Source: Alphaproteobacteria bacterium
GTDB lineage: Bacteria > Pseudomonadota > Alphaproteobacteria > Reyranellales > Reyranellaceae
NCBI GenBank assembly: GCA_016869975.1
Contig: VGCZ01000006.1
Span: 1-64,000, forward strand
DNA length: 64,000 bases
Direction: 5' to 3'
Part shown: positions 9,006 to 25,087 of the stretch, in pieces
Numbering within the stretch: the first letter of the stretch is position 1
How the letters are laid out: every line of letters begins with the position of its first letter
Program-made: the position numbers and the translations under genes
The notes under the pieces: model-generated
The model's database searches: none
What the model saw: the letters and a program-made list of their open reading frames with translations, nothing else
Told to the model about the DNA's origin: nothing

Positions 9006-9569
9006 ATGCTTCAGGCAGGCCTTGCCCTATCCGGACTGATCGTCGGTTTCGTGCTCGGCACCTTGGGCGAGTACTGGATCCATCGTGGCATGCACCATCG
9101 ATGGGTCGGCCGTTTTCTGGTCAAGCGCCACGGCGACCACCACATGGACGGCCTGGGCCAGGGCGTGCTGCAGGAATTCCGGGACTACGCCGCGGGCGCG
9201 CTGGCCGCCGCCGTGCTCCTGCTGCCGCTCGACTATTACTTCGTCACCGGCGGCTGGTTCGCCGGCGCCGGCATCGCCGGCGCGCTGATCCACGCGATCT
9301 TCGCCGCCTGGTGTCACCAAGCCCAGCACGAGGACCCGCGCCTGTTGCCGTGGCAGTCGGCCACCCCGGTGCACTTCGTCCACCACAAGCGCAACCAGCC
9401 CGGGCACAATTACGGCATCAGCGTCGACTGGTGGGACAAGGCCTTCGGCACCTACAAGCCCGAGCCGGGCTGGCGGGCCCTGATGGAACCCAACGCGCCG
9501 CGTCGGCCGTGGTGGCGGCTCGACTGGGCCGACCATCGTCCGGTCTCGATCCGCGGCCGTCGCGCCTGA
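9006..9569 (+). CDS. Fatty acid hydroxylase / sterol desaturase family di-iron membrane protein
   Basis: A 187-residue integral membrane protein with the histidine clusters of the superfamily: HRGMHH (26-31), HGDHH (42-46), HQAQH (104-108), HFVHH (123-127) and a final His134 in GHNYG. Hydrophobic segments occur at about 5-22, 60-80 and 86-102. Such enzymes hydroxylate or desaturate lipids or carotenoids at a non-haem di-iron centre. The next gene encodes a ceramide-glucosyltransferase-like enzyme, so a lipid substrate, possibly a fatty acyl or sphingoid chain, is likely but unproven. Confidence 0.8.
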   Translation: MLQAGLALSGLIVGFVLGTLGEYWIHRGMHHRWVGRFLVKRHGDHHMDGLGQGVLQEFRDYAAGALAAAVLLLPLDYYFVTGGWFAGAGIAGALIHAIFAAWCHQAQHEDPRLLPWQSATPVHFVHHKRNQPGHNYGISVDWWDKAFGTYKPEPGWRALMEPNAPRRPWWRLDWADHRPVSIRGRRA

Positions 9570-14659: not shown

Positions 14660-15370
14660 ATGGCGAGTTCCACGATATCCGGCGAGGGCCGCGCCGTCGT
14701 GGTCGAGGCCCGCGGTCTCAACCACTCCTACGGCACTGGCCAGCGCAAGGTCGACGTGCTGTTCGATATCGACATGGAGGTGCGCGAAGGCGAGATCGTC
14801 ATCGTGACCGGCCCGTCGGGCTCGGGCAAGACGACCCTGCTGACCATCCTCGGCACCATGCGGCGGCCGACCGAGGGGCATGTGCGTATCCTCGGCTACG
14901 ACATGCTCAACGCCACGCCGTCAGACATCGAGGTGATTCGCGGCCGGCTGCGCTTCCTGTTCCAGCGTCGCAATCTGCTCACCTCCCTCAATGTGCTGCA
15001 GAACGTGGTGGCGGGCGTCGCGATGACGCCGCTCACTAATCCGGCGTGGGACGAGATCCGCGGCCGCCATCTGCTGTCTCTGCTGGGCCTGGGCGACAAG
15101 GCCGAGGCGTGGCCGGATGAGCTGTCGGGAGGCCAGCAGCAGCGCGTCGCGGTGGCGCGCATGCTGATCGGCCTGCCGGACCTGATCATCGCCGACGAGC
15201 CCACCTCGGCGCTCGACCGCATCGCCGGGCGCATCGTCGTCGATCAGTTGCGCGAGCTGGCGCTGAAGGTGCGCTGCGCCGTGCTGCTGTCGACCCACGA
15301 CGAACGCATCTTCGACGTCGCCACCCGCCGCCTGCACATCGAGGACGGGCGAATCCACCAGATCGGCTAG
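14660..15370 (+). CDS. ABC transporter ATPase, DevA/LolD-like
   Basis: A 236-residue ATPase with Walker [10 protein letters not shown] (51-59), signature LSGGQQ (155-160), Walker B LIIADE (175-180) and the switch histidine in STHDER. It belongs to the LolD/MacB/DevA branch that works with FtsX-type permeases. It follows the permease gene by 5 nt. Its TAG stop shares a CTAG tetranucleotide with the stop of the convergent glycosyltransferase gene. Confidence 0.88.
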
Positions 15371-16494
15371 GCCGAGCTTCCCGCCAGCCTGGCGATTTCC
15401 TCGCCGACATCGTGCCAGGTCCGAGGCTGGTAGCGCTCGGCGATCAGCGCGGTGCACTCGCGACGGTACTGGGCGTCGAGCGCGAGGCGCTTGATCGCCG
15501 CCAGCCAACCCGGCCCATCGAGTTCGTCGACATGCGTGGCGAGGCCTTGCCCGGCCTCGCGCAGAGAGGTGTTGTCGCCGGCGACGCAGGGTTTGCCGAA
15601 CGACAGAGATTCGGTGATCGGCAGGCCCCAACCCTCGTGATGGGAAGGGAACACGGTGAACGCGCATTGCCGGTAGAGATGGACGAGCTCGGCGTCCGAC
15701 GGGCCGTCGACGAACCTTATGTGCCGCCCCCACATCTCGCGGTCGCGCGACATCAGATCGAAGACATCGCGGTCGTTCCAGCCGCGCTGGCCGGCCAGCA
15801 CGAGGGGCGGCGTGGCGTCGCCCAGCTCCTCGAAGAGGCGGCGCCACAACCAGTACAGGCCGGTGTGGTTCTTGCGCGGATTGAGCGTCGAGACATAGAG
15901 GACGTAACCGTCAGCTGGCAACCCGAGCGCGCGCAGGCGCGGCGAGGCGTCTGCTTCCACCCGCTCCTTGAGGTCCGAGCAGAGCGGCACATGGTGCACC
16001 GGAATGTCACGCTTGGCGGTTTGCTTGATATAGGCGGTCAGATCCTTCTCGACGAAGCGCGAGCTGACACACATCCAGTCGGCGCAATCGATCATCGCGT
16101 CGATGAAGCGGCGGAAATCCGCGGCGCCACTCTCGTTGCTGACAAGCTCTGGCCGGCGTATCGGCATGATGTCGTGGACATAGACGCCGATGCGGATCTT
16201 CTTGGCGCGCCGTTTGCGGGCGAGGTCGTCGATCTGGCGCTGACGCCAGAAGATCGCCGGCACGACGATGGTATCGCCCGCGCGCATCGGCGCCGCCTTG
16301 ACGCCGGGTTGCGGGTTGCGCCCGGCCTGTAGGGCGCCAACGCGGAAGCGGCCGAGCAGGCGATCATGGCGCAGGACATGACCACCGCGCGCGACCAGCT
16401 CGCGGGCGATCTCGTACTCGACCCGGGGAATGCCTGTGAGGCGCTCTTGCGGCCGGCTCACGCGCGTCGAGACCGTGACGTAGAGCGAACTCAT
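15367..16494 (-). CDS. Glycosyltransferase family 4 (GT-B)
   Basis: A 375-residue GT-B glycosyltransferase. The C-terminal donor domain carries the EGWGLPITE motif, an E-x7-E type site near residues 294-302, and the preceding VLYVSTLNPRKNH block that starts the second Rossmann fold. The N terminus has LTGIPRVEYEIARELV, as in rhamnosyl/mannosyl transferases of surface polysaccharide loci. It heads nothing on the minus strand beyond the three DxD transferases upstream, which it follows by 31 bp or more. The exact sugar cannot be told. Confidence 0.85.
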   Translation of the reverse strand: MSSLYVTVSTRVSRPQERLTGIPRVEYEIARELVARGGHVLRHDRLLGRFRVGALQAGRNPQPGVKAAPMRAGDTIVVPAIFWRQRQIDDLARKRRAKKIRIGVYVHDIMPIRRPELVSNESGAADFRRFIDAMIDCADWMCVSSRFVEKDLTAYIKQTAKRDIPVHHVPLCSDLKERVEADASPRLRALGLPADGYVLYVSTLNPRKNHTGLYWLWRRLFEELGDATPPLVLAGQRGWNDRDVFDLMSRDREMWGRHIRFVDGPSDAELVHLYRQCAFTVFPSHHEGWGLPITESLSFGKPCVAGDNTSLREAGQGLATHVDELDGPGWLAAIKRLALDAQYRRECTALIAERYQPRTWHDVGEEIARLAGSSA

Positions 16495-16525
16495 GCGATC
16501 TTCTTAGTGAGGAGGTAGCGACCGG

Positions 16526-17218
16526 TCAATCGACGCGCGCCCGGTCCCAATGCGCAAATTGCTCGGCTTCGAGCTCGTGCGGCCGGGGCCGGCCGTGGAA
16601 CACGCAGAGACGCGCCGAGGGCGGGATCGTGCCGCCGGCACCGAGATCGGCGTAGTCTACAAGCGAGCCCGGCAGTGTCTTCTCGATCGTGCGCCAGGCC
16701 ACACCGGCCCGCCGCAGACCGCTCTCGATGTAGCCGCGATGACCGGTCGCGCGGTGGCGATGGTTCCAGTATTCGGGCATCCAGGCGTAGCGCCGGTAGA
16801 GGAATGAGCAATCGACGCGCCAGGCCATCACTGCCGCGTCGAGGCCGCCCGCGCGGTGCGTGGCGGCCGCGAACTCTCCATCCAGCGCCAAGCCGGCCAA
16901 CTCGTCGAGCCCGCCCAGCACGACGGTGTCGAGATCGAGGTAGAGCACCGGCCCATCGAACAGGCCGCGGCGGAACAGCTCGAGCTTCGCCCACGCGCCG
17001 GGCCACAGCCAATGCAGCGGGAGGTGCTCGCACGGTACCGCGATGTCGGACAGACAGACGAAGCGATGCGGCAGGCTGAGATGCGCGGCGACGCTTTCGC
17101 GCAGGATTCGGACGTACTTGGCGAAGAACGGTCCCTCGCGCGTGCCCATGTGCTGACCGCCGCGGCGCAGGACGCAGGCGACGGTGAGCGGGGCGCCGCC
17201 CAGGCTGGAACGGGCCAC
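16526..17218 (-). CDS. DxD glycosyltransferase, tandem copy 3
   Basis: A 230-residue protein with TVACVLRRGGQH at the start, HRFVCLSD (51-58), the metal-binding DLDTV (95-99) in VLYLDLDTVV, and a C-terminal RPRPHE block. These are the landmarks of a small GT-A family close to GT8, here present three times in tandem. It is the most divergent of the three: the SxYGDQGF segment of the others is replaced by HRGYIESGL. Start ATG at 17218 sits 2 nt from the stop of copy 2, so the genes are co-transcribed. Confidence 0.75.
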   Translation of the reverse strand: MARSSLGGAPLTVACVLRRGGQHMGTREGPFFAKYVRILRESVAAHLSLPHRFVCLSDIAVPCEHLPLHWLWPGAWAKLELFRRGLFDGPVLYLDLDTVVLGGLDELAGLALDGEFAAATHRAGGLDAAVMAWRVDCSFLYRRYAWMPEYWNHRHRATGHRGYIESGLRRAGVAWRTIEKTLPGSLVDYADLGAGGTIPPSARLCVFHGRPRPHELEAEQFAHWDRARVD

Positions 17219-17220
17219 GC

Positions 17221-17871
17221 TCAGTACCAGTGCCGCGCCACCCAGCCCTCGACCTCGTGCGGCTTGGGGCGGGTCATCATCATGCAGATACGCGCGTCCT
17301 GGACCGGCACGCCGTACTCGCCGATGTCGAAATGGTTGATCACCTGGCCCGGCAGCAGGCGGTTGACGTACTCGATGGCCACGTCACGCTCGCGCAGCCG
17401 GCGCTCGGTGAAGCCCTGGTCGCCATAGCTGCTACCGCCGCGGCGGTGGACGCGCTGGTAGTGCTCGGGCCGCGACGCGAATTCGTCGTAGATGAAGGAG
17501 CAGTCCATGGTGAAGGCCATGATGCTGCTGTTGAAGTGGCCGTACCAGGGATCGGAGACGGCGGCGAAGCCGACCTCGCCGGCGAGCCGCGCGATATCGC
17601 GCAGATCGCCGCAGATCACCGTGTCGAGGTCGAGATAGAGTACCGGTCCGTCGAACAGGCCGGGCCGGAACAGCTCGATCTTGCTGTAGAAGCTCGGCCA
17701 GCCATGGACCAGCGGGATGCGTTCGCAGGCGACCTCGACGTCGGTCAGGCAGACGAAACGATGCTCGATCGGCAGGTGGCGACGCACCGCGTCACGCAGC
17801 ACGCGCACATACTTGGGGAAGTAGTCGCCACCGGACCTGAAAACGCTGGCGACGGTCAGCATGGCACCCAT
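17221..17871 (-). CDS. DxD glycosyltransferase, tandem copy 2
   Basis: A 216-residue GT-A protein. TVASVFRSGGDY, HRFVCLTD (37-44), KIELFRPGLF, DLDTV (81-85), GSSYGDQGF and a C-terminal MTRPKPHEVEGW identify it as a close paralogue of the gene at 17882-18613. The family takes a nucleotide sugar and uses the DxD motif to hold a divalent metal. Acceptor and sugar are unknown; the neighbouring export lipoprotein suggests a surface glycan. Confidence 0.75.
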   Translation of the reverse strand: MGAMLTVASVFRSGGDYFPKYVRVLRDAVRRHLPIEHRFVCLTDVEVACERIPLVHGWPSFYSKIELFRPGLFDGPVLYLDLDTVICGDLRDIARLAGEVGFAAVSDPWYGHFNSSIMAFTMDCSFIYDEFASRPEHYQRVHRRGGSSYGDQGFTERRLRERDVAIEYVNRLLPGQVINHFDIGEYGVPVQDARICMMMTRPKPHEVEGWVARHWY

Positions 17872-17881
17872 CGCGCGGGGC

Positions 17882-18613
17882 TCAGTGCCAGTGCCGGGGA
17901 ACCCAGCCGGCGGAGATCTCGTGCGGCTTGGGTCGGCCCATCATCAGGCAAACGCTGCCGGTCGGCTCGCCAGTGGCTCCGCCGTCGTAGTTGTAAACCG
18001 AGATCGCGCCCGGCAGCGCGGCGTCGAGATGGACGATCGGCACGCCGTGCCGCCGTAGAGACGCCTCGGTGAAGCCCTGATCGCCGTAACTGCTGCCCAG
18101 CGCGATCAGGCCGTCGAGCCCGACGCGGCGCAGCGTGAACCAGACATGATGGTGCCATTTCTGGATCCACGCGCCGGTCTGGCTGAACTCCTCGAACACC
18201 CTCGAGCAGTCGACGGTGAAGGAGACCACGCTGCTGTTGAAGTGGCCGCCCTTCGGATCGCTGGTGCAGCCGAACGCCGATCGCATCGCGGTTCGCGCCA
18301 GCTCGTCGATGTTGCCGTGGATCACCGTGTCGAGGTCGAAGTACAGCACCGGACCCTTGAAGAGGCCGGGCCGATAGAGCTCGATCTTGCTGTAGAAGCC
18401 CGGCCAGTTGGCGACCAGCGGGATGCGTTCGCAGGGCACGTCCGCGACGTCGGTCAGGCAGACGAATCGATGCGGCAACGTGAGGTTGCGCTGGACCATG
18501 TTGCGCAGCACCTCGACGTAACGTGACGAATAGTGCCGCCCCCCGGAGCGGTAGACGCAGGCGACGGTAAGGGGCTCGTCGCCCAGGCGGGGCGGATCGG
18601 TTTTGGCGGACAT
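17882..18613 (-). CDS. DxD glycosyltransferase, tandem copy 1
   Basis: A 243-residue paralogue of the two genes downstream: TVACVYRSGGRHYSSRYVEVL, described by its first and last residues at about 16-36, HRFVCLTD (48-55), DLDTV (93-97), GSSYGDQGFTE and GRPKPHEISAGW. I start it at ATG 18613 (MSAKTDPP), because the open frame upstream of it encodes an Arg-rich stretch with no similarity to the paralogues. First gene of the minus-strand glycosyltransferase run and divergent from the GT4 gene at 18790. Confidence 0.75.
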   Translation of the reverse strand: MSAKTDPPRLGDEPLTVACVYRSGGRHYSSRYVEVLRNMVQRNLTLPHRFVCLTDVADVPCERIPLVANWPGFYSKIELYRPGLFKGPVLYFDLDTVIHGNIDELARTAMRSAFGCTSDPKGGHFNSSVVSFTVDCSRVFEEFSQTGAWIQKWHHHVWFTLRRVGLDGLIALGSSYGDQGFTEASLRRHGVPIVHLDAALPGAISVYNYDGGATGEPTGSVCLMMGRPKPHEISAGWVPRHWH

Positions 18614-18710
18614 TGCCTGACGGGATGGGGCGCGGACGGACCGCGCGCTTGTAGCGGAAATCCGCCTTTCCTGCCAACGGCCGAGCGCGACCAAGGGTCT
18701 CAGGGCCAAC

Positions 18711-18730
18711 GCGATGTTACGCGATGTTAC
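18711..18730. repeat. Tandem decamer in a divergent promoter region
   Basis: GCGATGTTAC occurs twice, end to end, at 18711-18720 and 18721-18730, in the 176-bp gap between two divergent glycosyltransferase genes. A direct repeat at this place could be a regulator half-site pair, but it may be chance. Nothing else is evident in the gap. Confidence 0.45.
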
Positions 18731-18789
18731 GACATCGACGATGGCCGATCGGGCTTCATGTCCCGGGCGATATCTGTTAGGCGACCGCG

Positions 18790-19797
18790 ATGCGTATCGC
18801 CATCTCGACGGATTGCTGGTTCCCACAACTCAACGGCATCGCCCGGACCCTGGATGCCACGGTTCGCGAATTGCGTGCCATGGGCCACGAGGTCCTACTG
18901 TTGACACCCGATGAGTTCGGCAGCGTGCCGCTGCCGTGGTACCGCGAGGATCCCATCGTCTTCGCCTGGTATCCCAGGCTTGCGCGGCTGATGCGCGAGT
19001 TCAAACCGGAGTTCGTCCATATCGCCACGCAGGGTCTGCTCGGCCTGTCCACGCGGCTGTGGTGCTGGCGGCACGACATGCGCTTCGCCACCGCCTTCCA
19101 CACGCGCTTTCCTGAATACGCCCGCATTCGCCACGGTATTCCCGAGGGTCTGCTCTACCGCTACATGCGGCTGTTCCATGGCCGCAGCGCGCCGGTGCTG
19201 GTGCCCTCGCAGTCGCTCGCCGACGAACTCGGAAAGCACGGCTTCCGCAACCTTCGCATCTGGCAGCGCGGCGTCGACAGCGACACCTACCACCCGCGGC
19301 CGAAGACGTGGACCCAGTATCCGCGCCCAATCCACATGTATGTCGGCCGCGTCGCCGACGAGAAGAACATCGAAGCGTTCCTCAAGGTGAAGACCGAGGG
19401 CACCAAGATGATCGTCGGCGACGGGCCGCAACTAAACACGCTGCGCGAGCGTTTCCCCGGCGCGGTGTATCTCGGCAACAAGCAAGGCGAGGAGCTGTCG
19501 CGCTGCTACGCCGAGGCCGACGTCTTCGTCTTTCCCAGCCTGCTCGATACCTTCGGCCTGGTCGTGCTGGAGGCCTTGGCCTCGGGCGTGCCGGTCGCGG
19601 CGCTGCCCTCGCCGCATCTGGTGGAGATCTTCGGGCCGCACGAGGTTGTCGTGTTCGACGACGATCTGGCGGCGGCCTGCCGCAAGGCGCTGACCATCGC
19701 GCCGGAGCGCTGCCGCGAGGTGGCGCTGAAATTCTCCTGGCGCGCCTGCACCGAGCAGTTCCTGCATATCATCGAGGAGGCGCAGCACGCGGCTTAG
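18790..19797 (+). CDS. Glycosyltransferase family 4, lipid/alpha-mannosyl type
   Basis: A 335-residue GT-B enzyme beginning MRIAISTDCWFPQLNGIART, the classic N terminus of the GT4 branch that includes MgtA/PimB-like mannosyltransferases and digalactosyl/glucuronosyl diacylglycerol synthases. The acceptor-side TAFHTRFPEY (about 99-108) and donor-side VGRVADEKN and DTFGLVVLEALASG (E-x7-E type, about 252-265) are intact. It is transcribed away from the three DxD transferases. A membrane lipid or lipid-linked glycan acceptor is likely by family. Confidence 0.85.
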   Translation: MRIAISTDCWFPQLNGIARTLDATVRELRAMGHEVLLLTPDEFGSVPLPWYREDPIVFAWYPRLARLMREFKPEFVHIATQGLLGLSTRLWCWRHDMRFATAFHTRFPEYARIRHGIPEGLLYRYMRLFHGRSAPVLVPSQSLADELGKHGFRNLRIWQRGVDSDTYHPRPKTWTQYPRPIHMYVGRVADEKNIEAFLKVKTEGTKMIVGDGPQLNTLRERFPGAVYLGNKQGEELSRCYAEADVFVFPSLLDTFGLVVLEALASGVPVAALPSPHLVEIFGPHEVVVFDDDLAAACRKALTIAPERCREVALKFSWRACTEQFLHIIEEAQHAA

Positions 19798-19808: not shown

Positions 19809-20216
19809 TCAGCCCGGTAGGCGCAGGGTGGCTTCGCCCATCGCCGCGATGGCGCCGTCGGCGTCGCGCGCCAGCAGGCGCAGGATGACGCGGTGACCGT
19901 CGGCCAGCGCGTCGACCTTGGCGACGCGACCATCGCCGGTCAGCGCCGCGCCGGCCGGCACGGGGCGGGTGAAACGGCACTCGAAGGCCTCGAGGACCGC
20001 GTCGGAACGCCAGCCGAGCGCGAGGCGCGATAGACGGCCCATCACCAGCATGCCGTGGGCGATCCGATCTGGCAGACCGATGGCGCCCGCGGCAGCGGGA
20101 TCGAGATGCACCGGGTTATCGTCGCCGGACGCGCGGGCATAGCGCTCGATAGCGGCGCCATCGAGCGGGCCGATCGGCACGGCGGCCAGCTTCTCACCGG
20201 GACGCGGCGGGTTCAT
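19809..20216 (-). CDS. MaoC-like hot-dog dehydratase/hydratase
   Basis: A 135-residue hot-dog protein with the hydratase-2 motif GDDNPVHLDP (31-40), so Asp32 and His37 are the likely catalytic pair, followed by RIAHGMLVMG. MaoC proteins hydrate enoyl thioesters or dehydrate 3-hydroxyacyl thioesters. It overlaps the upstream hot-dog gene by ATGA (20213-20216). The two probably form a heterodimer in which only this subunit has the catalytic motif. It belongs to the ACP-ketoacyl synthase cluster upstream. Confidence 0.82.
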   Translation of the reverse strand: MNPPRPGEKLAAVPIGPLDGAAIERYARASGDDNPVHLDPAAAGAIGLPDRIAHGMLVMGRLSRLALGWRSDAVLEAFECRFTRPVPAGAALTGDGRVAKVDALADGHRVILRLLARDADGAIAAMGEATLRLPG

Positions 20217-20614
20217 TTCAGCTTGTCCCAGGTGAAGCCGGGCGCGGCGATGGCGATCTCACTTTCGGCCTGGCAGACCGCCGCGCCTGTCCCGTCGCTC
20301 ACGTCGAGGCGCACCAGCGCGAAGGGTCGGGCGCCGCCGGGCGGCGTGGCGCTGACGGCGCAGGTCAGTGTTTCACCGGCGGTCAGCGGTCGATGATAGC
20401 GGAAGCGCTGACCGACATGGATCGGCAGCGAGCCATCGGCGGGCAGGAACATCGCGAGTGCCGCGCGGATTTCAGGATGGAAGAGGAAACGGATCGGGAA
20501 GGTCGGCGGCACGGGCGATGCCGGCATGCCGAGTGTCTCCGCGAAGGCGTCGATCTCGGCGGCGTCGACGCGCAGGGTGACCGTGGCCAGCGGCCCGGCG
20601 GCCGCGTCGCTCAT
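20213..20614 (-). CDS. FAS1-type dehydratase-like hot-dog protein, non-catalytic half
   Basis: A 133-residue protein similar to the N-terminal half of MaoC-type dehydratases (PVPPTFPIRFLF, HVGQRFRYHRPLTAGETL). It lacks the D-x-N-P-x-H motif. That division of labour, one catalytic and one degenerate hot-dog subunit, is known in heterodimeric (R)-hydroxyacyl dehydratases such as mycobacterial HadAB. It starts 7 nt after the ketoacyl synthase stop and overlaps the catalytic partner's start. Confidence 0.75.
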   Translation of the reverse strand: MSDAAAGPLATVTLRVDAAEIDAFAETLGMPASPVPPTFPIRFLFHPEIRAALAMFLPADGSLPIHVGQRFRYHRPLTAGETLTCAVSATPPGGARPFALVRLDVSDGTGAAVCQAESEIAIAAPGFTWDKLK

Positions 20615-20621
20615 CGCGCGC

Positions 20622-21836
20622 TCAACTCGCGCGCTTGACCGCCAGCACGGCGTTCAGCCCGCCGAAGGCGAATGAGTTCGACACCGCGGCGCGGATCGGC
20701 ATGGCGCGCGCCTGATTGGGCACGTAGTCGAGGTCGCACTTGGGGTCGCGCTCGAGCCAGTTCGCGGTCGGCGGCGCCACTTGATGCTTCAGCGCCAGGA
20801 TCGTGGCCACCATCTCGATGGCGCCGGCGGCCCCCAAGCCGTGGCCATGCATCGACTTGGTTGACGACACTGCCAGCTTGTCGGCGTGCGCGCCGAAGGC
20901 AGCGCGGATCGCGGCCGTCTCGACCGGGTCGTTGAGCAGGGTGCCGGTGCCGTGCGCGTTGACGTAGTCGACGTCCTCGGGCGCCAGTCCGCCGTCGGCC
21001 AATGCGTTGCGGATCGCCGCCGCGGCGCCGTTGGCGTCGGGACGCAGCAGATCGCCGGCGTCGGCCGAGCAGCCCGCACCGGCCATCTCGGCGTGGATCT
21101 GGGCGCCGCGCGCCTTCGCCAGATCCATCCGCTCCAGCACGATGATGCCGGCGCCGTCGCCCAGCGACATGCCGTTGCGGCCGCGCGAGAACGGGCGGCA
21201 GGCGTTGGGCGTCAGGACCTTCAGCGCCTCCCAGGCGTTGATGTTGCCGTAGTTGAGATTGGCTTCGCTGCCGCCGGTGATCGCGCGGTCGACAACGCCG
21301 GCGCGCACCAGCCCCAGGGCGATGCCCATGGCATGGTTGGCCGAGGAGCAGGCGCTGCACACGGCGAAGGCAGGGCCGTTGACGCCGAATTCCATCGAAA
21401 TGTGACTCGCGGCGGCGTTGGGCATCGCCTTGGGGATGGTCGCGGCGTCGATGCGCCGCTTACCCAGCCCGTAGCGCTGGTAGAACGCGTCATTGAGCGT
21501 GCTGATGCCGCCGATGCCCGTGCCGACGATGACGGCGGTACGCGGCCCGGCGATGTCACTGGCGGACAGGCCGGCATTGGCGACCGCCTCGCGCGCCGCG
21601 ACCAGGGCGAACTGAGAAAAAGCGTCCAACGCCGCCAGCTTGGCTGACGCGAAATGGGCGGTCGGATCGAAGCCCTTGACCTGGCCACCGATCTTGACGT
21701 GCAGATCCTCGATGCCCGGCAGATCGAGCGGACCGATGCCGCAGCGGCCGTTGCTGAGGCCGTCCCAGAACGCGACGACGTCCGGACCCAGCGCGGAGAT
21801 GCACCCGAGTCCGGTAACAGCTACTTTATGGGTCAA
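20622..21836 (-). CDS. Beta-ketoacyl-ACP synthase, FabF-like
   Basis: A 404-residue thiolase-fold condensing enzyme with Cys163 (in CSACSSANHA), His295 (NAHGTGT) and His332 (KSMHGHGLGAAG, Lys327), so the Cys-His-His triad is complete. It condenses malonyl-ACP with an acyl chain. Its start is a TTG that overlaps the ACP stop (TTGA at 21833-21836), a tight coupling to the upstream ACP. With a dedicated ACP and two dehydratases but no reductase, it looks like an accessory set for a special acyl chain rather than housekeeping fatty acid synthesis. Confidence 0.9.
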   Translation of the reverse strand: MTHKVAVTGLGCISALGPDVVAFWDGLSNGRCGIGPLDLPGIEDLHVKIGGQVKGFDPTAHFASAKLAALDAFSQFALVAAREAVANAGLSASDIAGPRTAVIVGTGIGGISTLNDAFYQRYGLGKRRIDAATIPKAMPNAAASHISMEFGVNGPAFAVCSACSSANHAMGIALGLVRAGVVDRAITGGSEANLNYGNINAWEALKVLTPNACRPFSRGRNGMSLGDGAGIIVLERMDLAKARGAQIHAEMAGAGCSADAGDLLRPDANGAAAAIRNALADGGLAPEDVDYVNAHGTGTLLNDPVETAAIRAAFGAHADKLAVSSTKSMHGHGLGAAGAIEMVATILALKHQVAPPTANWLERDPKCDLDYVPNQARAMPIRAAVSNSFAFGGLNAVLAVKRAS

Positions 21837-22117
21837 GCCGATTGTCCTTGCTTGCCGCTCGCCTGGACGAGGCCCGACACTACGTCGACGACGTCGCCGA
21901 CATTGGCGATTTTCTGGATGGATTCGTCCATCGGCACGTAGATGTCGAACTTTTCCTCGATGCCGTTGAGGATCATCACCATGTCGATCGATTGCAGGCC
22001 GAGGTCCTCGAGGGTGGCCTCGGCCGTGATCTTCGCGCGATCGACCATCCCCTCACGCGCGATCACATCAATGATCTGCTGCGCCAGGGGCGTCCCCATG
22101 TCGACGGTGGTGCTCAT
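21833..22117 (-). CDS. Acyl carrier protein, specialised
   Basis: A 94-residue ACP. Ser43 in LGLQSIDMV is the phosphopantetheine site (the usual DSL is QSI here). A helix-rich, acidic sequence and the length fit the family. I chose the ATG at 22117 with GAGG about 10 nt upstream; an ATG at 22144 would add nine residues. It is the first gene of the ACP-KAS-dehydratase operon and probably carries the growing acyl chain for it. The DSL-to-QSI change marks it as different from the primary AcpP. Confidence 0.88.
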   Translation of the reverse strand: MSTTVDMGTPLAQQIIDVIAREGMVDRAKITAEATLEDLGLQSIDMVMILNGIEEKFDIYVPMDESIQKIANVGDVVDVVSGLVQASGKQGQSA

Positions 22118-22222
22118 AACGAGTGCATCCTCACAACGGATCATTACCTAGACCGGTCGTCCCGCTAAGTCTACCCCGACATGGGGTGGGAAAACCGCGG
22201 TTCACACGCCGATTCGAGCCCT

Positions 22223-23365
22223 TTAGGCGAGCACGCGTTCGAATATCCGGTAGGTCTTGACCTTCACACCCCCAATCCGTTCGATGATTCGGCGCATAGG
22301 TTTGTTGGTCTCGAGGATCCATCCAAGCTCTACCGTCTTGAGCCCAAGCCCCTTGTTGCGGCGGTGCAGTTCCTCGATCGCCAGCATGGCTAGGCCGGCG
22401 CCGATGGCGGATTGCTGGTAGGTGGTCTTGACGCCCATCAACGGGATGCGCGCCGTCCGCAGCCGCAGGCGCAGCAGGTTCACCGCCAGCTTCAGCCACC
22501 CGAAGGCCAGTAGCCGCCCATCGAAATCGGCGATCCATTCCAACAGGTTGGGGAGCGCGATGATGAAGGCCGCGGGCTCTCCGTCGACCTCGACGACCAC
22601 GCCCGACTGCTTGCGCACGACCGGCCGCATCTCGGAGGCCATGTTGTCCATCTCCGCCTCGGTGAAGGGCACGAAGCCCCAATTGTGCTGCCAGGCGTCG
22701 TTGAACAGACCCAGCACGACCCTGACCTCGGCGCGCAAGTCGTTGGTGCGCAGTGGGCGGGTGACGATGCGATTGGCGAGGTCGCTGCGCCGGATGAGCG
22801 CGGTGCCATAGCCGGTGGGCTCGCCATCGACCGGATAGTCGTAGTCGAGCGTGTCGATCGCCTTGGTGTATCCGGCGGCGTCGACATGGCCGGGCAGGTA
22901 GGGCGGGTTCCAGGGCACCAGGAACATCGGGCGGTGCGTGAAGCCCTCGATCAGCATGCCCATCTCGGCGTTGATCGAGGGATTGAACGGGCCGGTGATA
23001 CGCTTCATGCCGCGCGCTGCCGCCCAGCTCTCGGCGGCGCGCAGCAGGGCTTCGACCACCTCCGCGTCGTCGATGGCGTCGAGGCAGCCGAAATGGCCGG
23101 TGGCATCCTGGTAGCGTTCCAGGTGCAGGCGGTCGATCTGCGCCAGGATGCGGCCTACCGGCCGGCCGTCACGCCAGGCCAGAAAGCGCTCGCTGTCGGC
23201 GTGCCGGAAGAACGGATTCTTCTTCGGATCGAAAGTCGTGCGGCGGTCGAGGTCGAGCGGCGCCACCCAGCCGGGCAGGCCGCGGTAGAGCTTGCGCGGA
23301 AGCTGGATGAAGGTGGTGAAATCGGCGGCGCCGGAAAGCGGCCGCACCTCGATCGGGCCGGTCAT
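22223..23365 (-). CDS. GNAT-superfamily acyltransferase (YghO-like, possible ceramide synthase bCerS type)
   Basis: A 380-residue protein, much longer than ordinary GNATs. The N terminus reads RKLYRGLPGWVAPLDLD, then GRILAQID, FGCLDAID and ITGPFNPSINAEMG, and the C-terminal GNAT part has KTTYQQSAIGAGLA and ELGWILETNKPM. This is the YghO family. As I recall, the bacterial ceramide synthase of Caulobacter is a member, acylating a sphingoid base. No serine palmitoyltransferase is in the window, so that role is inferred from the nearby ACP cluster and GT21 gene. Start ATG at 23365; divergent from the next gene. Confidence 0.65.
   Translation of the reverse strand: MTGPIEVRPLSGAADFTTFIQLPRKLYRGLPGWVAPLDLDRRTTFDPKKNPFFRHADSERFLAWRDGRPVGRILAQIDRLHLERYQDATGHFGCLDAIDDAEVVEALLRAAESWAAARGMKRITGPFNPSINAEMGMLIEGFTHRPMFLVPWNPPYLPGHVDAAGYTKAIDTLDYDYPVDGEPTGYGTALIRRSDLANRIVTRPLRTNDLRAEVRVVLGLFNDAWQHNWGFVPFTEAEMDNMASEMRPVVRKQSGVVVEVDGEPAAFIIALPNLLEWIADFDGRLLAFGWLKLAVNLLRLRLRTARIPLMGVKTTYQQSAIGAGLAMLAIEELHRRNKGLGLKTVELGWILETNKPMRRIIERIGGVKVKTYRIFERVLA

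Positions 23366-23470: not shown

Positions 23471-25087
<1,617 letters not shown>

Follow-up and report, generated by a model that had tools for sequence, protein, structure and literature searches.

What does a GNAT protein do at the head of a gene row that also encodes its own acyl carrier protein (ACP), a ketosynthase (KS), and two hot-dog proteins, and which lipid does the row serve? Such a row lies in the window, the whole 64,000-nucleotide stretch of Reyranellaceae DNA that was analyzed. An earlier note on this DNA had named these five genes, and the open reading frames and protein families agree with it at every position. The row and the neighboring genes considered here are as follows.

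22223..23365, minus strand: GNAT protein heading the row, putative bacterial ceramide synthase (CerS/Aca/YghO family), 380 amino acids; PF00583
21833-22144 (open reading frame), minus strand: ACP, with homology beginning near 22117, the probable conserved start; PF00550, 1e-7
20622..21836, minus strand: KS, a FabF-type beta-ketoacyl-ACP synthase of a distinct subfamily, 404 amino acids; PF00109 and PF02801
20213..20614, minus strand: HadA-like hot-dog protein without a hydratase motif, 133 amino acids; FAS1_DH_region, 3.9e-8, and a weak HadA match
19809..20216, minus strand: HadB-like/MaoC hot-dog protein of the (3R)-hydroxyacyl dehydratase/hydratase type, 135 amino acids; PF01575, 1.3e-20; motif GDDNPVH
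18790..19797, plus strand: GT4 glycosyltransferase, convergent with the row; PF13439/PF00534
9609..10799, plus strand: GT21-family glycosyltransferase, candidate acceptor ceramide or another lipid; PF13506, 2.4e-32
9006..9569, plus strand: fatty acid hydroxylase; PF04116, 2.8e-18
start at 23471: GGT protein

A conserved row of five genes

The ACP and KS genes overlap by 4 bases, as do those for HadA and HadB, and 7 bases separate KS from HadA; we infer that all five genes are co-transcribed. As the earlier note had observed, the row contains neither a ketoreductase nor an enoyl reductase. The identical order of all five genes recurs in three relatives (G001, G003, and G004), with identity down to 60% for the GNAT and 41% for HadA, so the row is more than a chance arrangement. 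A fourth relative, G002, carries the tail of the GNAT followed by KS and HadA at a contig end. All four complete rows, that of the window's own genome (G000) included, are headed by the GNAT.

The ACP carries its serine within LQSID, and its copies beside the GNAT in G001, G003, and G004 are 71-97% identical. It falls below every curated ACP cut-off tested; membership of the AcpXL family was rejected on a score of 33.5 versus 83 bits for NF005079, which we take to be the AcpXL model. The KS reaches 438 bits with the fabF model TIGR03150, below the 494 cut-off, and has the motifs CSACSS at 160, HGTGT at 295, and GHGLGAAG at 331; these, like GDDNPVH at position 31 of the HadB-like protein, are presumably catalytic. 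The last motif is absent from the HadA-like protein, the probable structural or substrate-binding half of the pair. Mycobacterial HadA/HadB likewise consist of two single hot-dog proteins with a hydratase motif in one only, but the pair described here lies far under the curated cut-offs (45.9 versus 203 bits for HadB, 21.6 versus 180 for HadA) and is linked to the putative ceramide synthase, not to mycolate genes. The two other matches in the same genome are 42% and 35% identical to the KS of the row.

A putative ceramide synthase and the sphingolipid core genes

Over 372 columns the GNAT and YghO of Escherichia coli K-12 are 41% identical (GNAT residues 7-377 of 380). A figure legend gives yghO as the counterpart of Caulobacter CC_1154 (PMC9386255), and YghO is the bridge through which we link the GNAT to CC_1154; no Caulobacter title occurs among the best 80 of 583 confirmed GNAT relatives. 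In E. coli YZ22PE68, yghO adjoins genes annotated as spt, acyl carrier protein, oxidoreductase, acyl-AMP ligase, lptF, and lptG.

The earlier note had proposed a search of the genome for serine palmitoyltransferase (SPT), and the enzyme is present on another contig (C10; L042:14853-19181), where an acyl-AMP ligase, a CerR-like epimerase, an ACP, and SPT stand in a row. This SPT scores 639 bits with NF047599 (cut-off 500), and the chains that rank first among its solved relatives bear the name serine palmitoyltransferase; the acyl-AMP ligase also exceeds its curated cut-off, while CerR and AcpR are assigned from position and fold family only. A phosphoesterase-like gene and LptF/G belong to the same cluster. 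Neither CerS nor the hydroxylase was found in this SPT stretch, where genus g4 carries both.

Across genomes the GNAT and SPT travel together. Among 61 relatives, the 39 with the GNAT are also the 39 with SPT, and in a sample of the class (n = 289) 40 genomes have both and 247 neither, with one GNAT alone (a weak partial match) and one SPT alone (in a genome 82% complete; Fisher p 8e-47). The two genes lie on one contig, no more than 10 kb apart, in 30 of the 32 other family genomes, and on different contigs in all five genomes of the window's genus (g1) and its sister genus (g2). An SPT match occurs in the flanks of 49 of 80 named GNAT loci (the best 80 of the 583 relatives), and CerS lies inside the sphingolipid clusters of relatives. 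The available text of PMC11324152 places cerS always in another operon than aasR-cerR-acpR-spt. In Reyranella-type genomes, however, spt, a phosphoesterase gene, and cerS follow one another on the same strand, which appears to challenge that statement.

Sequence, gene order, and co-occurrence with SPT thus argue strongly that the GNAT is a bacterial ceramide synthase (CerS), the enzyme that the earlier note had thought it to resemble. Were it instead an unrelated acetyltransferase, such as one that N-acetylates amino sugars or amino acids, and its sphingolipid link accidental, one might expect what the general searches gave: in Pfam a generic Acetyltransf_1 match only (30.1 bits), no match among NCBIfam profiles, and sugar and small-molecule acetyltransferases as the best Foldseek matches of its predicted structure, a tandem-GNAT fold (pLDDT 91). 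The resemblance to YghO, the gene order kept across many lineages, and the near-perfect co-profile with SPT already disfavor that reading and make it extremely improbable; the protein groups with the YghO/CC_1154 family and not with unrelated acetyltransferases. With the ceramide synthases CC_1154 and YghO it shares sequence family, co-occurrence with SPT, and, in relatives, LptF/LptG and SPT as neighbors. It differs from them in its position, ahead of ACP-KS-HadA-HadB and remote from the SPT cluster, and in its faster divergence in this lineage.

The g1 distance ratio of CerS is 1.63, versus 0.64-0.97 for eight companion genes, for several of which g4 supplied one or two sequences. Taken as proof that the acyl donor is new, this fast evolution is weakened by two observations: in the CerR tree, too, the g1 branch is longer than the g4 branch (pairwise ratio 0.87), and only three conserved residues are altered in all four g1/g2 proteins. 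Since 54 of the 67 residues conserved in other CerS proteins are kept, a clear loss of CoA binding is not indicated. A first GNAT tree (L061 omitted as a fragment) put g1/g2 with a long-branch row outside the rest of the family. A second, also without L062, L064, L090, L092, L095, L098, and L101, disagrees with it and unites the family's 24 rows in one clade (99/97); we prefer the second tree, on which horizontal gain of CerS need not be invoked.

Three genes outside the row may belong to the same chemistry. The GT4 gene, kept at the same place in G001, G003, and G004, is a possible head-group enzyme. The hydroxylase, about 13 kb from the row, is possibly a ceramide acyl hydroxylase, because 9 of the 80 named loci (best 80 of 583) have a weak relative of it immediately upstream of CerS; the g4 hydroxylase, used as query, finds no match in the C10 stretch but does match this gene (38% over 74 amino acids, 1.7e-7). 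The GT21 gene begins 39 bases after the hydroxylase and is only HpnI-like (107 bits versus a 310-bit cut-off). A ceramide glycolipid, the end product that the earlier note proposed, is thus no more than a possibility.

What the fatty-acid-building set may supply

We consider it reasonably probable that the row serves as an operon for ceramide N-acylation, in which the GNAT acts as CerS and ACP-KS-HadA-HadB is a dedicated FAS-II set making the N-acyl chain, delivered on its own ACP, with the sphingolipid probably replacing lipid A. The special acyl chain module suggested in the earlier note is also our best reading of these four genes. SPT, which has an ACP and an acyl-AMP ligase to itself, would make the long-chain base from serine, and CerS would N-acylate this base or the 3-keto base. 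The KS would catalyze the condensing step, which joins an acyl chain to malonyl units on the dedicated ACP; a putative shared FabG would reduce the product, HadAB would dehydrate (or hydrate) it, and a putative shared enoyl reductase would complete the cycle, unless that step is skipped. The resulting special acyl-ACP, probably with a long or otherwise unusual chain, would pass to CerS as donor. At the level of sequence there is support for the assignment of CerS, for the core genes of sphingolipid synthesis, for conservation of the row, and for the failure to find LpxC and LpxB; we infer that CerS receives the module's product, that this donor is bound to ACP, and what kind of chain it carries. 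The components are already known, and their combination is new.

The module is not required for ceramide, since SPT and the GNAT occur without any KS more than 44% identical to that of the row in 32 of 37 family genomes. Its KS subfamily (E<=1e-92) occurs in 22 of the 289 class genomes. LpxD is the lipid A N-acyltransferase that uses acyl-ACP, and elsewhere in the class 13 of 20 loci read of this subfamily have the order LpxD-ACP-KS. These rows share with ours the KS subfamily and the order N-acyltransferase, ACP, KS; here CerS takes the place of LpxD, and HadA and HadB follow. By this parallel the gene at the head of the row would be the consumer, but a rule of KS beside an acyltransferase is loose, because no LpxD adjoins the KS at 7 of the 20 loci. 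CerS-linked KS proteins form a single clade within the subfamily tree, and genome G059 has an ACP-KS-hot-dog row without an adjoining CerS.

The acpXL-fabZXL-fabF2XL-fabF1XL-adhXL-lpxXL cluster, described in the available text of PMC11901934 for the very-long-chain fatty acid of rhizobial lipid A, follows a common logic, with an ACP, ketosynthase, and dehydratase of its own clustered with the chain-consuming acyltransferase. The present row has a HadA/HadB-type pair where that cluster has FabZ, a single KS where it has two, and a GNAT in place of LpxXL; its ACP is different, it has no alcohol dehydrogenase, and its acceptor would be a ceramide backbone, not lipid A.

The module might share only a promoter with CerS and make a chain for another lipid, such as a glycolipid or hopanoid conjugate. 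The conserved GT4 gene next to the row would fit this; so would the 18 of 22 genomes with this KS subfamily that have no full-length CerS match, and two SPT-bearing genomes without LpxC (G116 and G230) whose KS lies away from CerS. We nevertheless regard it as unlikely: where the module exists the GNAT has left the vicinity of SPT to head it (in every complete row, with the fifth partial), none of the 32 other family genomes has the KS subfamily, and the LpxD-ACP-KS order points to the first gene as consumer. Alternatively, the module could build the acyl precursor of the long-chain base, given that SPTs of this group prefer acyl-ACP according to the accessible parts of PMC11324152 and PMC9386255. 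An ACP and an acyl-AMP ligase already stand directly beside SPT, however, and module and SPT occupy separate contigs in five of five g1/g2 genomes, which leaves this supply route quite improbable. The N-acylation operon remains the preferred reading.

Sphingolipid and lipid A

No LpxD above the cut-off was found in the window's own genome (best E 3.2e-6), and LpxC and LpxB, both key to lipid A, the usual lipid of the outer membrane, were found in none of 37 family genomes, this one included. In the class sample an LpxC match is missing in 24 of 41 SPT-bearing genomes versus 22 of 248 without SPT. Sphingolipid instead of LPS is a theme familiar from sphingomonads, and the available text of PMC10331486 treats it in LPS-null mutants of Caulobacter. 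The family without LpxC and LpxB (37-genome sample) and the SPT/LpxC pattern extend this theme, and a sphingolipid probably replaces lipid A in the family's lineage. More tentatively, there may have been a swap of partners, in which an elongation pair serving LpxD elsewhere was joined to CerS in a lineage that has lost lipid A, and ceramide took over both the outer-membrane place of lipid A and its private fatty-acid supply; we hold this to be possible but doubtful.

The available text of PMC9386255 calls CerS an acyl-CoA N-acyltransferase. A literature search, mostly outside subscription journals, returned among the matches listed no earlier report that describes a CerS-KS module, links YghO to sphingolipids, or records the loss of lipid A by Reyranella. 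A natural row that joins CerS to a private ACP, KS, and dehydratase opens two questions to direct tests: how the acyl chain of bacterial ceramide is chosen, and whether the donor used by CerS is acyl-CoA or acyl-ACP. Because CerS shares the row with a private fatty-acid-building set, the locus suggests that this bacterium tailors the acyl chain of its sphingolipids, possible substitutes for lipid A.

The ceramide synthase and its five-gene row

The five minus-strand genes read in the earlier note, for a GNAT, an ACP, a ketoacyl synthase and two hot-dog proteins, hold up as real by open reading frame analysis and by Pfam and NCBIfam, which agree on the fold families of their products. The window features considered here are:

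19809-23365, minus strand: the row of GNAT (CerS), acyl carrier protein (ACP), ketoacyl synthase (KS), HadA-like and HadB-like genes
23471-25087, plus strand: a gene divergent from CerS, starting 105 bases away, which we take to be gamma-glutamyltransferase-like
15367-18826, minus strand: a GT4 glycosyltransferase plus related proteins that lack a Pfam match, conserved in G001 and G003, with no match on the G004 contig
9006: a hydroxylase gene

The ACP/KS and HadA/HadB pairs overlap by 4 bases and the KS to HadA gap is 7 bases, a spacing that appears operon-like. By motif reading, the KS carries its Cys motif and two His motifs, and the hydratase motif GDDNPVH is present in the second hot-dog protein and absent from the first.

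The GNAT's likeness to bacterial ceramide synthase, proposed in the earlier note, is borne out by 41% identity (372 columns) to YghO of Escherichia coli K-12, itself the CC_1154 counterpart according to a figure legend (PMC9386255), and by co-occurrence with serine palmitoyltransferase (SPT). The K-12 record annotates YghO as a putative regulator; in E. coli YZ22PE68, yghO neighbors spt and genes for an acyl carrier protein, an oxidoreductase, an acyl-AMP ligase, lptF and lptG. GNAT (E<=1e-3) and SPT (E<=1e-90) matches fall in the same 39 of 61 relatives. In the 289-genome class sample (E<=1e-10 and E<=1e-70, respectively), both genes occur in 40 genomes, GNAT without SPT in one (G220, a partial match at 30%), SPT without GNAT in one (G107, 82% complete) and neither in 247 (Fisher 8e-47). 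Outside the window's genus (g1) and its sister genus (g2), the two genes share a contig, at most 10 kb apart, in 30 of 32 family genomes; in G011 and G013 the matches lie on separate contigs. Flanks of the 80 named GNAT loci, the best 80 of 583, include SPT at 49, acyl-AMP ligase at 48, CerR at 41 and LptF at 30 (E<=1e-5, some matches weak and many flanks cut by contig ends). The AlphaFold model is confident (pLDDT 91) and retrieves tandem GNAT folds among the first Foldseek hits, at 12-15% identity; no sequence relative was found in the PDB (best E 0.26). Judged by its sequence, the window GNAT is a ceramide synthase. Three genomes hold second, diverged CerS copies, 31-40% identical to that of the window (L064 on G025:C44, G299:C107 and G195:C6).

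The serine palmitoyltransferase cluster and the position of cerS

SPT, out of view in the window, was found elsewhere in the genome, as the earlier note had proposed to check. Searching G000, the genome of the window, with PF00155 gave 21 places, one of which, on contig C10, is SPT: it scores 639 bits against NF047599 (cut-off 500), and its eight best solved relatives (1e-105 to 4e-109) are all chains named serine palmitoyltransferase. It is preceded on its strand by genes for a fatty acyl-AMP ligase (NF006624, 736 bits, cut-off 600), a CerR-like epimerase and an ACP, which with SPT match the Caulobacter order aasR-cerR-acpR-spt described in two papers (PMC11324152, PMC9386255). On the 3' side lie a probable phosphoesterase, with weak matches only, and LptF/LptG-like genes (221 bits against a cut-off of 230 for the LptF model; PF03739, 206.5 bits); no cerS or hydroxylase match was found in the C10 stretch at 14-52 kb. 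The gene directly ahead of the acyl-AMP ligase (L042:13596-14747, on C10), which we take to be ELM1-like, has no NCBIfam match at 1e-6 and relatives in 8 of the 80 named CerS loci (best 80 of 583); it is a candidate sphingolipid gene.

In the loci read from two other genera of the family (g3 and g5), aasR-cerR-acpR-spt-phosphoesterase-cerS runs on one strand, and in a third (g4) cerS follows LptF, LptG and a fatty acid hydroxylase. By gene order, CerS in the window's lineage is a moved gene with new neighbors. In g1 it also outpaced its companion genes in divergence: the ratio d(g1,g4)/d(g3,g4) is 1.63 for CerS versus 0.64-0.97 for eight other genes, from one to four g4 sequences per gene; three more genes have no ratio because the g3 stretches read contained none of them. 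The control for this comparison is imperfect: in the CerR tree, too, the g1 branch is longer than that of g4. In 49 other CerS proteins, 67 columns are conserved to 90% or more; all four g1/g2 proteins keep 54 of these, some keep ten and none keeps three (window residues 162, 277 and 296).

The row headed by CerS and continued by the ACP-KS-HadA-HadB module is found in g1 (G000, G001, G003 and, in part, G002) and g2 (G004). Across the remaining 32 genomes of the family, KS identity never rises above 44%, which by sequence is the generic FabF level, and HadA-like matches stay at or below about 31%. The module is present at one of the 80 named GNAT loci (best 80 of 583), L103, in the gene order of G004's contig. 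G001, G003 and G004 all keep the GT4 gene that converges on the row, a possible head-group enzyme. Weak relatives of the hydroxylase at 9006 lie directly upstream of CerS at 9 of the 80 named loci (best 80 of 583), and also in g4, making an acyl hydroxylation step plausible; the GT21 enzyme may use either ceramide or a hopanoid-type acceptor.

The ketoacyl synthase beside other acyltransferases

The KS subfamily (E<=1e-92) occurs in 22 of the 289 class genomes. Twenty neighborhoods were read and counted (19 plus G059's first); G297, G059's second locus (L066) and two fragments from G044 (L067 and L068) stand outside this count. At 19 of the 20 the KS is immediately preceded by an ACP-like ORF, which the window's ACP matches at 17; it is visible only as a short ORF at L215 and L221, and none was seen at L218. 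LpxD stands directly upstream of ACP-KS, on the same strand, at 13 loci:

LpxD-ACP-KS: L203, L205, L206, L209, L210, L212, L214-L217, L220, L221, L065
KS without LpxD: L204, L207, L208, L211, L213, L218, L219

Genes resembling the window's gamma-glutamyltransferase-like gene also occur near KS-ACP at L207 and L213.

Four of five proteins from these LpxD rows scored against the lipid A LpxD model (cut-off 242.5) pass at 261-290 bits; the fifth stays below it at 240. Among 20 genomes searched, eleven have LpxD beside ACP-KS, and nine of these have no other LpxD match above 100 bits; G123 carries another that passes the cut-off, and G102 has an additional match split in two (151 and 62 bits). LpxD-ACP-KS rows, present in many alphaproteobacteria, may supply acyl chains specifically for the N-acylation of lipid A; among the matches listed in the literature search, none described them. 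The acpXL-lpxXL cluster groups the genes that build and attach lipid A's very-long acyl chain, namely those for the ACP, the dehydratase, the synthases and the acyltransferase (PMC11901934). It is a functional parallel to the window's module, which does not belong to that system.

In the KS tree the CerS-linked proteins form one clade (100/99) among LpxD-linked KS, in a part with many open forks. Next to it, weakly placed and long-branched (85/73), is G059's second KS, followed at L066 by the gene for a 261-aa protein. HadB matches the second half of this protein (38.6% over 70 aa, 2.5e-11), and in its first half the likeness to HadA is only faint (E 0.06). L066 shows that an ACP-KS pair can have a hot-dog partner away from CerS; among the loci seen, ACP-KS most often stands behind an N-acyltransferase. 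That the module makes a chain for another lipid we consider rather unlikely, and that it supplies SPT, whose cluster lies on C10, quite improbable. We lean toward the module elongating a chain on its own ACP for CerS to take to the base: the KS would elongate the acyl chain on the dedicated ACP, HadAB and a shared FabG would process it, possibly together with an enoyl reductase that is also shared, and CerS would then pass the chain from this carrier to the base.

Lipid A genes and the sphingolipid

No LpxC (PF03331) or LpxB (PF02684) match was found in the 37 family genomes or in G037 and G049; among the 22 relatives without SPT, LpxC is present in 18 and LpxB in 20. LpxD over the cut-off was found in none of four family genomes searched (27-33 bits in G000, G003 and G006; 206 bits in G022). 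The 206-bit match, at G022:C1:2003702-2004553, has two internal stops, in a genome without LpxC or LpxB matches, and is possibly an LpxD remnant.

Across the class sample, LpxC absence is strongly associated with SPT (24 of 41 SPT genomes versus 22 of 248 without SPT; Fisher 4e-12, overstated since the genomes are related and some incomplete). The other 17 SPT genomes have LpxC, so lipid A need not be lost for sphingolipid to be present. In Caulobacter, ceramide-phosphoglycerate allows survival without LPS (PMC10331486).

The sequence data show sphingolipid core genes, a CerS family member and a conserved row, with two lipid A genes not found. Those two genes and the module are both missing elsewhere in the family sample, so in a possible swap from LpxD to CerS the module would either have been retained only in the window's lineage or have been gained. 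In another family (f81), G116 and G230 have SPT and CerS with no LpxC match, and G322 has LpxC with no SPT match at E<=1e-50; this trio is a natural set for studying the replacement.
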